From a virus, in the IMG/VR virus record IMGVR_UViG_3300044797_000098, positions 186,001 through 250,000 of that record: 64,000 nt of DNA. One strand, written 5' to 3'. Below, piece after piece: positions 22,782 through 28,484 of the stretch. Within the stretch, counting starts at the first letter, position 1; each line of letters opens with the position of its first letter. Both the position numbers and the translations under genes were made by a program. The notes under the pieces were generated by a model. The model searched no databases. It was given only the letters and a program-made list of their open reading frames with translations, and was not told where the DNA came from.

Positions 22782-24635
22782 TTATCTCATTTTTGGTAAA
22801 TACGCTACTAACACTGGTGGCCTATCTTTTGCAGGATCTCTCATCATTGATTGCATTTTTATTTTAAATCCCTGACTAATATAAAACTTATACGCAATAT
22901 ACGCGTTAAGCATTGCCATAAAAAAATCATTGGGCGAACTACCTTTTACGTAATGTGGAGTTATATCTCCAGCTCTGCTTATACTTGGTTTTATTTCCAT
23001 ACTACATATATGTTGAATCAACATTACTATTTGTTCATAACTTCCCATTGGTATTCTAACATTACCCTTTTTCATTTGTTCATATAAATCTGCTATCCAA
23101 AAATCTCTCTCGAATCTTATTATACGAGGAAAAGTTTCTGAATCATATTTAATATGATCTTTTACTTTATTAGTTGCTTCAGATGAAAGAAACTTTTCGC
23201 CATATTCTGTTTGCAATATTTCATTTAAATCATGAGCATAACCAAAATCGCAAACTGCTAAATTAATCGAATATTTTCTAATTATTTCTTCAATTATTCC
23301 TTTTTTACTTGCTAAATCATTTCTTTTAAATGATGTTGCAAACTCTATTGACATTCTTTGCGGACCAGTCATTGCAATAACAACCGCTGTGCTAAAACTT
23401 TGACCACCTGTTTTAATTTTATTAGAATCAACCAATTGCTCTAAATCATTTTTTCCACCAATATCAATTCCTAAAAATACTGGTAATTCTTCATCTGGTG
23501 ATATACTTGATCTAAACTTTCTGCCAGGGTCTCCACATAATTCTCTAACCTGATCTTGTGTTATTATTGTTGCTTCACCATGGTAAAACTCACCAAGAAC
23601 TTCATTTTGATATCCTTTTTCGGTACTTACCGGATTATTTTCTGGTTTTTCTGATATTATCTTTTCTTTTGTATATGTTGGAACATATAATTGATTAATA
23701 TGAAAACCTATATACTTAGCATCATTTTGATCGTTTAATGCTACCCATTTTCCTCTTTCAACCGCTTCTCTTTTATCTTGCTCAAAACCACAATGAGGAC
23801 AACGAACTATAAATCCATAAATCCATATAGTTTCCCAATCATTAGTTCCAGGCGTATATAATGGAAAATATTCTTTACATTTTTCACATCCTAAATGATA
23901 GTATTGTTGTGATGATGCGTTCCACATATTCCAATATGTGGAACCTCGTTGAAGCGGTGTTCCGAAAAATATCTGAACTCCTTGGCCAGGCTCTCCATAT
24001 TTAGATTGGGTCAATACTTTAAGAGAATTATTTATAGCAGATGCATACATAAGCTGAACTTCATCAAAAAATATAACATCTATGGTTTTACCTCTTAAAC
24101 GATTGCCATCCTCACCACAACTATCTATCCATAAATGATTGCCACCAATAAATTGTTTAAATTGAAGTGAATTATTACTTTCTGATGTAGTATCAATTAA
24201 TGATTGCATATATGATTTTGTTTTACCAACTTTTTTAATTTCACTATTATCAATAATAACCGATGAATTAATCATTGAACTTAATTTTACTTTGGAATAG
24301 TCGTATGCTAATGAGAGCTGCGGGAACGCGTGAATTATACGAATAGGAGGATTTTTGCTATTACCGAATAGACCACTGCCCATAAAATACATTTCAAGAG
24401 CGGACGCCATAGTCGTTTTACCTACTTGTCTCCCCGCAACTATAACAACTGGTTTACTTCCTTTTTCAATGGCTTTTATACCAACATATCTATAAATATC
24501 TGCAAACGGTTTCCAACCACCATCTTGCAACCTGAATCTTTCGCCATCAATTGTCAGATATTTTTGAGCAAAATGAACCGGATCAAAATTTAATAATTTA
24601 TCTTTTATTTTTTCTAATAGTAAATCTTCCGACAT
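22782..24635 (-). CDS. terL: Terminase large subunit
   Basis: 617 residues. The ATPase domain has Walker A AGRQVGKTT (67-75) and Walker B DVIFFDE (186-192) with catalytic Glu192. The motif III-like GTP lies near 225. A CxxC...CxxC zinc ribbon (C250, C253, C279, C282) is inserted between ATPase and nuclease domains, as in the GpA-like branch of terminases. The RNase-H-like nuclease domain starts at FLGIDIGG (Asp391), with a second acidic site at VCDFGYAHD (Asp463) and a third probably in SPNDFF near the end. It cuts concatemers and pumps DNA into the prohead through the portal encoded next. The ATG at 24635 follows a short spacer from 24654-25259. Confidence 0.95.
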   Translation of the reverse strand: MSEDLLLEKIKDKLLNFDPVHFAQKYLTIDGERFRLQDGGWKPFADIYRYVGIKAIEKGSKPVVIVAGRQVGKTTMASALEMYFMGSGLFGNSKNPPIRIIHAFPQLSLAYDYSKVKLSSMINSSVIIDNSEIKKVGKTKSYMQSLIDTTSESNNSLQFKQFIGGNHLWIDSCGEDGNRLRGKTIDVIFFDEVQLMYASAINNSLKVLTQSKYGEPGQGVQIFFGTPLQRGSTYWNMWNASSQQYYHLGCEKCKEYFPLYTPGTNDWETIWIYGFIVRCPHCGFEQDKREAVERGKWVALNDQNDAKYIGFHINQLYVPTYTKEKIISEKPENNPVSTEKGYQNEVLGEFYHGEATIITQDQVRELCGDPGRKFRSSISPDEELPVFLGIDIGGKNDLEQLVDSNKIKTGGQSFSTAVVIAMTGPQRMSIEFATSFKRNDLASKKGIIEEIIRKYSINLAVCDFGYAHDLNEILQTEYGEKFLSSEATNKVKDHIKYDSETFPRIIRFERDFWIADLYEQMKKGNVRIPMGSYEQIVMLIQHICSMEIKPSISRAGDITPHYVKGSSPNDFFMAMLNAYIAYKFYISQGFKIKMQSMMRDPAKDRPPVLVAYLPKMR

Positions 24636-24653
24636 TAATATCTTTCAATATAA

Positions 24654-25259
24654 TTATTTGGCTCCGTTATTCGGCTCACATCCACCCAACGGATCATCCA
24701 CGACTGATGTATCTTCGGATAGGTCTAACTTACCTAATTCAAAATTATCATTATCATTTTTTTGAATAGATTTATTTACTTCCATTATTTTATCATTAAT
24801 ATATTTTTTTACTTCTAACGGCACATCATCTGATTGGGGAAGTTTTTCTTTTATTGTTTTTATTTTTAATAAATCATGTATAACTGCTTCAACCGAGGTG
24901 CCAGGACGATCATCAATATAATTATCTATATAAGTTTTTAATACTGGTATATCTTTAAAGATTTGTATATTGCTATAATGACTGGCGCTTGCTTGTTTTC
25001 TTTGTAAAATATCATATAGACCGGTGCGTTTTTGCATATCTTCTACCGCTTCCGCCACTGTCGAATATTTTGATTTATTACCGAGAATACTATTAATCTG
25101 ATCGAATAATGAATAATCCTGACTTTTTGGTTTAGCTGACTCTTTTTCTAAATTCTTTGCAAAATCATTGAACCAAGACGGAGTTCTATCACCACGATCG
25201 AAAGAGCTTTCATCGCGTGATATTATTGATGAATTACGTGTGAAGTATTTATTTGACAT
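24654..25259 (-). CDS. Conserved-looking phage protein upstream of terL
   Basis: 201 residues. The N-terminal 55 are polar (MSNKYFTRNSSIISRDESSF). About 60-100 holds KYSTVAEAVEDMQKRTGLYD, ending in a helix rich in Gln/Ala. This pattern (V-x-x-A-V-x-x-M-x-x-R-T-G-L) recurs in large-phage proteins of unknown function. About 105-150 contains IPVLKTYIDNYIDDRPGTSV, a helical segment. The C-terminus is acidic. ATG at 25259 overlaps the last codons of the HNH reading frame; the AGG in that overlap is the only RBS-like element. A small terminase or connector role is possible but unsupported. Confidence 0.7.
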   Translation of the reverse strand: MSNKYFTRNSSIISRDESSFDRGDRTPSWFNDFAKNLEKESAKPKSQDYSLFDQINSILGNKSKYSTVAEAVEDMQKRTGLYDILQRKQASASHYSNIQIFKDIPVLKTYIDNYIDDRPGTSVEAVIHDLLKIKTIKEKLPQSDDVPLEVKKYINDKIMEVNKSIQKNDNDNFELGKLDLSEDTSVVDDPLGGCEPNNGAK

Positions 25260-25710
25260 TAGGACCTATACTATTATTGCGTATTATTGCCTTATAGTCT
25301 TCTATACTAACGGTGGCGGTATCATATCCACTTCTTCTAATAATATATTCTTTATATGAATTACAATTATAACACAATACCTGATACCCTGGTGGAAAAT
25401 CATTTTTAATTAAATATCTATAAAACTCTCGACCAAAACCTATATTTTTTCTTTCCACCGATCCATTATTATGGATATGGTCAATAGTCAAAAACTCCAA
25501 TACATTTTCTTTGCATTCGATACATTGCTTGCCATATTGATCAATAACCGTATTTTTTAATTTTAAAACTTGTTTTCTGGAGCCAAGATTAATACATTTT
25601 TTACATATATTTCTACCATCTTTTTTCTTACATGCATACCAATTTTCATTAGTTAATTCAGTACCACATGATCTACATACATCATGTTGTCCTAATTTAT
25701 TAAAAAAATT
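25249..25710 (-). pseudogene. Second HNH module in a frame without start codon (frameshifted continuation)
   Basis: A 153-codon open frame runs from a TGA at 25711-25713 to the stop at 25249 but has no ATG or GTG; the first TTG is at 25500, inside the HNH core. It encodes a Cys ribbon (DVCRSCG ... CKKCIN), then a full HNH core: QCIEC, FLTIDHIHNNG, FYRYLIKNDFPPGYQVLCYNCN. This mirrors the complete HNH of 25700-26020 just upstream, whose stop is reached right after a run of seven T. A +1 shift there would fuse the two into one 256-residue two-module nuclease. Alternatives are a decayed gene or a base-count error in the T run. The last codons overlap the start of 24654-25259. Confidence 0.6.
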
Positions 25711-26020
25711 TCATATTAGTATTTATTATCTGAGTTTGTTTATGAGGGCAATATCCATTATGTCCTAATGAGCAATTGCAATTATAGCATAAAACTCTAA
25801 AACCAGCAGGATAGTTATTATTTATTAGCCATGTATAAAAATTGCCACCGGCGCTTACACCAATATCTTTTCTATGTTTATTTCCATTGCCATTAATATG
25901 ATCTATAGACAAAAGATCAATATCTGATATACCGCAACACTCACACACATTGCCATATGTGCTAATTACTAATTTTTTCTGCTTTGCCCTATATTTTCGT
26001 GCTCTATCTATTTTATCCAT
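25700..26020 (-). CDS. HNH endonuclease
   Basis: 106 residues from ATG 26020 (MDKIDRARKYRAKQKK); a longer frame upstream would overlap the previous gene by 77 bp, so I prefer this start, although its RBS is weak. The core has VCECCG, LSIDHINGNGNKHRKDIG with the catalytic D-H pair, and FRVLCYNCN supplying the second Cys pair. This is the HNH/beta-beta-alpha-metal fold of free-standing phage endonucleases, which nick or cut DNA and often spread by homing. It ends NTNMKFF followed by TAA at a seven-T run, and a second HNH module continues in the +1 frame. Both modules are inserted between the genes 26034-26915 and 24654-25259. Confidence 0.88.
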   Translation of the reverse strand: MDKIDRARKYRAKQKKLVISTYGNVCECCGISDIDLLSIDHINGNGNKHRKDIGVSAGGNFYTWLINNNYPAGFRVLCYNCNCSLGHNGYCPHKQTQIINTNMKFF

Positions 26021-26033
26021 CTTTACTGTTTTA

Positions 26034-26915
26034 TTATGACGGAAAATTAGCTCCGAAGTCGAAGTTATCCGAAGTTTTGTATTCCATATGATGGTTTGCC
26101 GGATATCCACGATCTCTACGTACTTGAGCGTACCCCATGTTATCTAATAATTCCATTAATTCAGCCTGTTCTCGTTTGTCAAGGCTCCATTCATTAACTT
26201 GTGCCTCGAACATTAATTCGATGTCATGCCCACCTGATACCATTCCATTTATTAATGTTTTTGCAATTCTTGATATCAAAATTGGAACGGTAATAATGAT
26301 TCCACCAATACGATCTTGTTTAGCTTCTTTTACTAACCCGTCCTCATCAAGATCTGCTTTCTTATTTTTATATCCACCATCAATTTTTTTGATGGCTTGT
26401 TCAAGACGACTAATACCATCCAAGATTTCTCTACGGGCTTGTTCGAGTTTCCCGATATCAACTTTACCATCATAGTCATCAACTATTGCTTTTGATATTG
26501 CAGAATTAATTCGTTTAAGAGCAGATATGGTTCGTTCCATACCGGTAGTTTCTGTGCCGGTGTGTTTTGGTAGATTTTGTAGGCGATCATGAACCCATTG
26601 TAAGATGCCAGCAGGAGGAGGTGGTTTCCAAGGATCTTGAACTTCTAATTCCTCAACTTTGTTATCATCCTTATCTTTTTTGCCATCACTCTCAACTTCG
26701 ACTGGGTCTTCGGTAGACACTTCTAATGGCATATCTGCATCTGACCCTGGAAGAGGAGGGAGTTTGAACGTGATTTCCATGGCATCATTTGGCTGATGGA
26801 GTTCGACAACGTCTTCCATTGAAGGCTTTTCTTCGTATAAAACGACCTCATCTTCGTCTCCGAAGTTCTCAAAATCGTTTGCATCTAGGAACTGGGCTTG
26901 TTTATACAATGACAT
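26034..26915 (-). CDS. Conserved-looking phage protein, helical
   Basis: 293 residues. The acidic N-terminal 90 (FENFGDEDEVVLYEEKP) and a PWKPPPP motif precede a helical domain (TGMERTISALKRINSAISKA, KLEQARREILDGISRLEQAI). The C-terminal part contains a hydrophobic run GIIITVPILISRIAKTLING and NEWSLDKREQAELMELLDNMG and ends NFDFGANFPS. I have the impression that this architecture recurs in large phages next to terminase genes, but its function is not established. No catalytic residues are evident. It is 7 bp from the next gene upstream. Confidence 0.7.
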   Translation of the reverse strand: MSLYKQAQFLDANDFENFGDEDEVVLYEEKPSMEDVVELHQPNDAMEITFKLPPLPGSDADMPLEVSTEDPVEVESDGKKDKDDNKVEELEVQDPWKPPPPAGILQWVHDRLQNLPKHTGTETTGMERTISALKRINSAISKAIVDDYDGKVDIGKLEQARREILDGISRLEQAIKKIDGGYKNKKADLDEDGLVKEAKQDRIGGIIITVPILISRIAKTLINGMVSGGHDIELMFEAQVNEWSLDKREQAELMELLDNMGYAQVRRDRGYPANHHMEYKTSDNFDFGANFPS

Positions 26916-26922
26916 TTTTACC

Positions 26923-27699
26923 TCAAAATAGGGATATATCGTATGCTAAATTATGTATAGATTTAGGAGTATTAGGATTAATTGCTACATACTCACGCAA
27001 TTTCGGATCACTATCTTTTGCCATTTCAGCTAACGTATCTGGCGGGGTATTATAGTTTGTTGCTACACTATAACGAACACTGTTATCTTTATCTTTTGCT
27101 AACTCAATTAATGTTGATTGAGGTGTATTACGATTTCTTGCAACATTAAAGCGCACACCATTGTAATGATCTTTTGCTAATTCAACTAATACACTTTGTG
27201 GTGTCTTAGAATTATCCGCAATACTACATCGTATGTGATTAGTTTTATTATCTGTATTGTTTTTATTTGCCTTATAATACTGTAAAATCTCTTCCGAAGT
27301 CGCTTTATTGTATTTTATTTTCAATAAAATTGTCATTGGTCTATTTTCTGCATCCTTAGTAATTTTATTTTTAATCGAATTATCAATATCTAATTCTGTT
27401 TCATCTATTTGATTATCTAATGAATCAAAACATTCTACTTTAATAATTTGATTATATTCATTTCTATGAACTGCCAATGCAACTTTACTGAATAAATCAT
27501 CTGGATCTTTATTTTTTGATATTATAAAATAAAATATAACATTTTCATCAGTATATTGTTCATAATAACTGGTATTTTCCATTGTAATACACCATTTTGT
27601 TCCGGCGCCATATGCCATACAAGCCTGTTTATTTTTTATAAATAAAACTACATAGTTATTATCTTCATATATTTTTTCCGCACCTTCTGTTTTTATTTG
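26923..27699 (-). CDS. GTKWC-type domain plus variant-Leu-rich repeats, likely made by -1 frameshift
   Basis: The first in-frame ATG (27618) falls inside a conserved domain, and the frame is open further upstream with no start codon. Read from 27699 it gives QIKTEGAEKIYEDNNYVV, then ACMAYGAGTKWCIT, the pattern of a phage domain that normally begins with (G-A-x-x-I/V-Y-E-D). So the true N-terminus lies upstream, and the frame joins 27693-28484 exactly at an A AAA AAC heptamer. The second half (about 165-258 from 27699) has four repeats of the type VRxxVAxNxNTPxxxLxxLAKD, as in variant-Leu-rich/HEAT-like repeat proteins, suited to protein binding. The product would be a 520-residue fusion. Function of the family is unknown to me. 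Confidence 0.8.
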   Translation of the reverse strand, partial: QIKTEGAEKIYEDNNYVVLFIKNKQACMAYGAGTKWCITMENTSYYEQYTDENVIFYFIISKNKDPDDLFSKVALAVHRNEYNQIIKVECFDSLDNQIDETELDIDNSIKNKITKDAENRPMTILLKIKYNKATSEEILQYYKANKNNTDNKTNHIRCSIADNSKTPQSVLVELAKDHYNGVRFNVARNRNTPQSTLIELAKDKDNSVRYSVATNYNTPPDTLAEMAKDSDPKLREYVAINPNTPKSIHNLAYDISLF

Positions 27700-28484
27700 T
27701 TTTTTTCTTGCGTTTTTGATTGTTGTTTTGGTAGATTTTTAATTGCCTCTTCTAATGATATTCCGTCATACCTATTGATATCTTTTTCCTTGAATTTATG
27801 AATATTATTGTGAAAATATTCTATACTGGGGTATAAATTATTAGGATTGATACCAAGATCTAATTGTTTTACCATCCATCTTAAATATTTATTCGTATGC
27901 GAAGGATCTCGTTGAGAGATCTCTTTTATATTTAATTTTGGATATTTTGCTTGTAAATCTTCTATTACGCCAGCGGTTTTTACAAAATTATTGAAAAACA
28001 ATGAACGGAGTTTTACCCGTTCTTGTATTGTATTTGATGCTGATTGGTAAATATTATTCCAAGGATTTAATACTGCATCAGGATTATCTGCAATATATGC
28101 AGAATAATATGCAGTTGGATAGGCATTAAGTCCTTCAACTCCCGTTAAACTACCATATTCTGATGCATAGTATGGTGCTGGATCAAGGACGGTATTTTTC
28201 TTTTCTTGCATTAATTTTCGTAATAATTTCAATCGTTTTAGTCTTTTATTTTTTCGTTTTCTAAATTCAGAAAACTCAGGAAACTCTTCTCCGTCTTTAC
28301 CGATATTTTCCATTCTATCTAAATCTCGTGGTCTTTCCATCATTTCTTGACCAAACGGCATATATTGATTATATGGATATTGCTCATCGCCAATATGAAA
28401 ATATGGAGATCCCTCGAACCCGAACTGACTTTCGTATGGTTCGTTGTAGCAATACTTTTGAAGGAGTTGATCGAGTTTGGTCAT
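27693..28484 (-). CDS. N-terminal part of the GTKWC/repeat protein (zero-frame product)
   Basis: 263 residues. The start MTKLDQLLQKYCYNEPYESQ is polar, followed by a Lys/Arg helix (about 75-95) and a Tyr/Ala/Asn-rich middle. The C-terminal 90 contain QRDPSHTNKYLRWMVKQLD, a pattern (D-P-x-x-x-x-K-Y-L-x-W-M) that in phages is usually found in the same protein as the GTKWC domain encoded in the next frame. The last codons are GAA AAA AAC AAA TAA, so a -1 slip on A AAA AAC would bypass the stop and append the downstream domain. Without slippage a 263-residue short form is made. ATG at 28484 overlaps nothing and follows the nucleotidyltransferase by 1 bp. Confidence 0.8.
   Translation of the reverse strand: MTKLDQLLQKYCYNEPYESQFGFEGSPYFHIGDEQYPYNQYMPFGQEMMERPRDLDRMENIGKDGEEFPEFSEFRKRKNKRLKRLKLLRKLMQEKKNTVLDPAPYYASEYGSLTGVEGLNAYPTAYYSAYIADNPDAVLNPWNNIYQSASNTIQERVKLRSLFFNNFVKTAGVIEDLQAKYPKLNIKEISQRDPSHTNKYLRWMVKQLDLGINPNNLYPSIEYFHNNIHKFKEKDINRYDGISLEEAIKNLPKQQSKTQEKNK
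27699..27705 (-). promoter_or_regulatory. Candidate -1 ribosomal frameshift heptamer A AAA AAC
   Basis: On the coding (minus) strand the zero frame reads GAA AAA AAC AAA TAA, so A AAA AAC is in the X XXY YYZ phase needed for tandem -1 slippage. The stop follows one codon later, and the -1 frame continues for 258 residues into the GTKWC domain. I see no strong downstream stem and no upstream SD-like stimulator. Confidence 0.65.

Follow-up and report, generated by a model that had tools for sequence, protein, structure and literature searches.

Two half-genes meet at an in-phase A-rich heptamer

The window analyzed here is a 64,000-nucleotide stretch (bases 186001 to 250000) of the 406,470-base virus record IMGVR_UViG_3300044797_000098, which has a G+C content of 36% and comes from an uncultivated jumbo phage. 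A pair of adjoining half-genes lies on the minus strand, some 2.3 kb upstream of the large terminase gene (22782-24635). One is an open reading frame (ORF) of 263 amino acids (aa) (28484-27693) that closes with GAA AAA AAC AAA TAA. In phase with this ORF, two codons before its stop, stands the heptamer A AAA AAC (27705-27699), whose six A's lie within an A7 run (27706-27700), exactly as the initial annotation had described. The other is a -1 frame (27738-26923) of 271 codons without a stop, encoding a GTKWC domain and C-terminal LRV/HEAT-like repeats (Pfam LRV PF01816, E=1e-10; LRV_2 PF25591, E=3.9e-08). No ATG, GTG, or TTG occurs upstream of codon 40 in this frame. The first start, ATG 27618 at codon 40, lies inside MAYGAGTKWC, just before the GTKWC core, so the GTKWC part does begin upstream of any ATG, as had been claimed. 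A -1 shift at the heptamer would yield a predicted fusion of 520 aa (262 + 258), which agrees with the sizes previously given for the fusion and the 263-residue short form.

The 263-aa ORF is itself composite. Its N-terminal ~169 aa correspond to a 173-aa gene of the relatives L003, L004, and L006, and its last ~92 aa, carrying DPSHTNKYLRWM, are the helical first part of a module that continues into the -1 frame.

The halves belong to a family encoded in single frames

Homologues show how the two halves fit together. One of them is L001 (IMGVR_UViG_3300032893_000190), in which the module is present twice inside a single 1004-aa frame and which is 45% identical to the window sequence. Aligned with the joined halves, L001 shows no gap where they meet (KSKRQEKLEIKTEGGRKIYED against QSKTQEKNQIKTEGAEKIYED), a check that the initial annotation had proposed, and it puts the shift of frame no more than a few codons away from the A7 run (QEK / IKTEG). 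An alignment-based scan returned 182 relatives in viral contigs, of which 79 loci were retained, and one weak relative in bacterial genome contigs. All 48 distinct homologous junctions that were examined are single-frame. The homologues hold DPSGNNKYLxW and GTKWC within one frame, which confirms the earlier suggestion that the DPSHTNKYLRWM motif and the GTKWC domain belong to one family, and the family's motif order (DPxxxxKYL, KDIN.Y, IYED, GTKWC) is kept in the window only when both frames are joined. These comparisons support reading the window halves as two parts of one ancestral gene with the transition at the A7 run. The initial annotation had held that single-frame homologues without the heptamer in close relatives would refute frameshifting; the homologues are indeed all single-frame, but none comes from a close relative. 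Searches of phage records and viral contigs gave no near-identical copy of the module and no close relative with the module in which conservation of the heptamer could be tested. The module has no paralogues in its own genome, where it is single-copy. The contig that carries L001 and L016 has at least four GTKWC modules arrayed in neighboring ORFs, and it also distantly matches the window's large terminase gene.

The module belongs to a widespread, uncharacterized phage family. PHROG 17056 was matched by 37 of the 39 aligned homologues and PHROG 28193 by 34 (E<=1e-3). The separate window halves matched neither, whereas L001 does. The window sequence has the four motifs of these PHROG families, although its copy is split between frames and is joined to the C-terminal side of an unrelated 169-aa protein; in most members a short leader comes first instead. 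Among named phages, the homologues EST35_0205 of PA5oct and Paride_0002 (Wroclawvirus) have the same two-part domain at ~23% identity. Unlike the window copy, each is a standalone gene in one frame, with a C-terminal half unlike the window's. The annotation of EST35_0205 as a structural protein rests on ESI-MS/MS, and Paride_0002 comes after the large terminase gene. The structural annotation, together with the late-region position of the module, suggests a possible association with the virion. A relationship to PcfJ-like proteins (PF14284) is hinted at by profile matches of 5 of 39 family members and by fold matches to PcfJ-like viral models, all of them weak, but L001 scores 18.7 bits against a Pfam gathering cutoff of 25, below membership, and a Pfam search of the window halves gave no match to PF14284.

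The AlphaFold2 model of the L001 module has a mean pLDDT of 86.9 and a pTM of 0.55, with most parts confident. A helical part comes first, followed by a linker (residues 111-120) of low confidence (mean pLDDT, 54) and then by an alpha/beta part that contains the GTKWC motif. The break in the window maps onto this interdomain linker, so the 263-aa product would hold the whole helical subdomain. A fold search of the PDB with the L001 model gave no match (best E, 1.1), and a sequence search of solved structures gave no credible one. Among viral models, the fold matches were uncharacterized phage proteins, giant-virus proteins, a PA5oct structural protein, and, weakly, the PcfJ-like proteins.

The module occupies a site that is empty in four relatives

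Four related contigs (L003 to L006, the same places as L007 to L010) do not have the module. There the 173-aa gene, which in L003 closes with ...NNFVKNAML*, has a stop that overlaps the mini-ORF MNNLAYDISLF*, and the next gene, MSLYKQAQ, follows. The mini-ORF is conserved in L003, L004, and L006. In the window, the same flanks surround ~1.02 kb (26955-27977, minus strand; boundaries approximate to a few bases) that is in frame on both sides, NNFVK[TAGVIED...TPKSIH]NLAYDISLF*. The module ends in the LRV-type repeats, and the 3' tail common to the relatives and the window (26923-26954, minus strand) corresponds to the mini-ORF of the relatives, whose counterpart in the window spans 26923-26957. 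Since the module is patchily present, it was probably gained in the window rather than lost from the four relatives. The locus records a widespread phage-family module as an in-frame insertion whose empty site is known. It is also a hotspot for gene gain and loss: a DnaJ-like gene of 169-170 aa lies upstream of the 173-aa gene in L003 (923-1432) and L004 (2475-2987) and is missing from the window and L006.

The heptamer is an ordinary feature of this genome

The 463 non-overlapping ORFs of the genome contain A_AAA_AAC in phase 40 times, against 31.4 +/- 5.4 expected from codon shuffles, and a one-base change within such an A-run would give this phase about one-third of the time. The heptamer is therefore unremarkable in itself; the remarkable feature is the presence of two collinear half-genes. 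In-phase A_AAA_AAA is avoided (82 observed versus 195 by codon shuffles). Across the whole record, in-phase heptamers of the AAA TTT type also fall strongly below the codon-shuffle expectation (A_AAT_TTC, 3 versus 30.5; A_AAT_TTT, 23 versus 73; A_AAT_TTA, 50 versus 89). The junction stretch is a lysine-rich linker, and within the 42 codons around the junction, 26 of the 48 homologues have an A-run of at least 6 and 12 have one of at least 7, and the frame is intact in every case. L021, for example, has an A8 run at the corresponding position (SKRQQKK). Runs of this kind thus occur in the lysine-rich linkers of intact homologues as well, so a slippery heptamer that lies in phase between two half-genes is weak evidence for recoding in an A-rich phage.

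A stimulator is usual, although not obligatory, for -1 frameshifting. The RNA that follows the heptamer folds no more stably than shuffled sequences (z, -0.22 and -0.10), and inspection by eye revealed no Shine-Dalgarno-like stretch upstream at a dnaX-like distance. In E. coli, A_AAA_AAC supports a shift of more than 0.10% when no stimulator is present, and one insertion sequence (IS) cluster relies on it with no stimulator established (PMC4066793). Trace amounts of a fusion protein made by slippage are accordingly plausible; a functional level is unproven. The IS elements use the same in-phase A_AAA_AAC as the window, but their split is conserved across the family (PMC4066793), whereas the homologues found for the window module are all in one frame. 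Among conserved frame transitions in prokaryotes, 4010 pseudogene clusters were counted versus 146 recoding clusters (PMC3711429).

Other split genes in the record are mobile or accessory

Next to the half-genes lies a second split gene (25249-26110, minus strand), named HNH-like endonuclease on the basis of DHIxNG-type motifs; a Pfam search with its separate halves gave no match. It is a single 286-aa ORF in L007 (IMGVR_UViG_3300035696_000119) but in the window an additional T in a T-run (T7/T6, alignment position 25708) breaks it in two. Apart from this T, a block of 984 bp (26282-25298) with the gene and flank is identical to L007, and the sequences on either side of the block diverge by ~10%. 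The sharpness of the block looks like recent homing with co-conversion, with the endonuclease already frameshifted. In a GIY-YIG gene at ~297.7-298.7 kb of the record (L107), the catalytic half and the helix-turn-helix half are likewise separated by a change to the -1 frame. Only three genes are clearly split in 406 kb. When 205 ORFs from the four related contigs (a redundant set that includes overlapping frames) were compared with the genome, the HNH gene was the one clear case of a one-base frame change. Widespread long-read error was rejected, as the ORFs common to the relatives are colinear except for HNH.

A probable natural length change, and its alternatives

The module is present in the window and missing from four relatives, its homologues are single-frame, and the break in what was one frame lies at the A-run. 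We consider it probable that a recent natural one-base change in the length of the linker A-run split an accessory fusion gene. The initial annotation had offered a one-base indel in the A7 run as an alternative to frameshifting; we favor it, given the single-frame homologues and the frequency of A-runs in intact linkers. According to this model, a module made up of the helical DPxxxxKYL part, the lysine-rich linker, the GTKWC beta domain, and LRV-type repeats would have been joined in frame to the 3' end of the 173-aa late-region gene of a jumbo phage, and a natural one-base change in the linker A-run would later have split the fused gene. The main product now would be the 263-aa form, that is, the old protein with the helical subdomain, and the GTKWC/repeat part would either be unmade or arise in traces by spontaneous ribosomal or polymerase slippage on A7. 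The break is presumably recent, as no stop has appeared through 259 codons of the -1 frame. Some observations sit less easily with a natural length change: the break falls exactly at a recognized slippery heptamer and in a low-confidence interdomain linker, and there is no other copy of this module variant in which the unbroken state could be seen directly.

The leading alternative is an assembly or consensus error in the A-run, with the gene intact in the real phage. The HNH gene 2 kb away likewise differs from L007 by homopolymer length alone over 984 bp, and the -1 frame retains every family motif without a stop. With two homopolymer changes only 2 kb apart, an error stays a candidate, albeit an unlikely one. 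Random mistakes should strike core genes more than accessory ones, yet only three genes are clearly split in the record and HNH alone among the ORFs shared with relatives. That the shared ORFs are otherwise unbroken speaks for genuine mutation of dispensable genes rather than random error. With breaks in mobile or accessory genes and a mostly sound consensus, we infer that the change is probably a real mutation under weak selection. Switching of the fusion between an on and an off state in the population, through A-run length, would be consistent with a homopolymer in the right place and two intact halves. We regard such phase variation as very unlikely, however, since A7 is short for a contingency tract, the genome has 216 A/T runs of exactly 7, and no variation was found among the relatives, none of which is close. 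Least probable of all is that these are two separate genes. An ATG-started ORF of 231 aa is present, but a start at ATG 27618 would remove the upstream strands and the IYED-like motif of the homologues.

The initial annotation had preferred programmed -1 ribosomal frameshifting at A_AAA_AAC, giving a 520-aa fusion and a 263-aa short form; in the version weighed here, both would be functional. An interdomain linker, where the break lies, would be a sensible site for a programmed short/long pair. The heptamer is in phase exactly at the transition, with the zero-frame stop two codons later; both halves are well preserved, and in E. coli the motif has a weak tendency to shift even with no stimulator (PMC4066793). 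The proposal is nevertheless not supported by our analysis: no split homologue was found among the 48 junctions, downstream RNA structure is absent, no suitably spaced Shine-Dalgarno stretch was seen by eye, the frequency of the motif is ordinary (40 versus 31 expected), and the other split genes of the record require another cause. We therefore consider programmed frameshifting doubtful, and less probable than a consensus error. A narrower, slightly less probable version is a lineage-specific programmed frameshift that arose after the domain insertion and places an optional GTKWC/LRV tail on a few copies of the late-region protein. If true, it would parallel the minor forms of virion proteins that are made by recoding.
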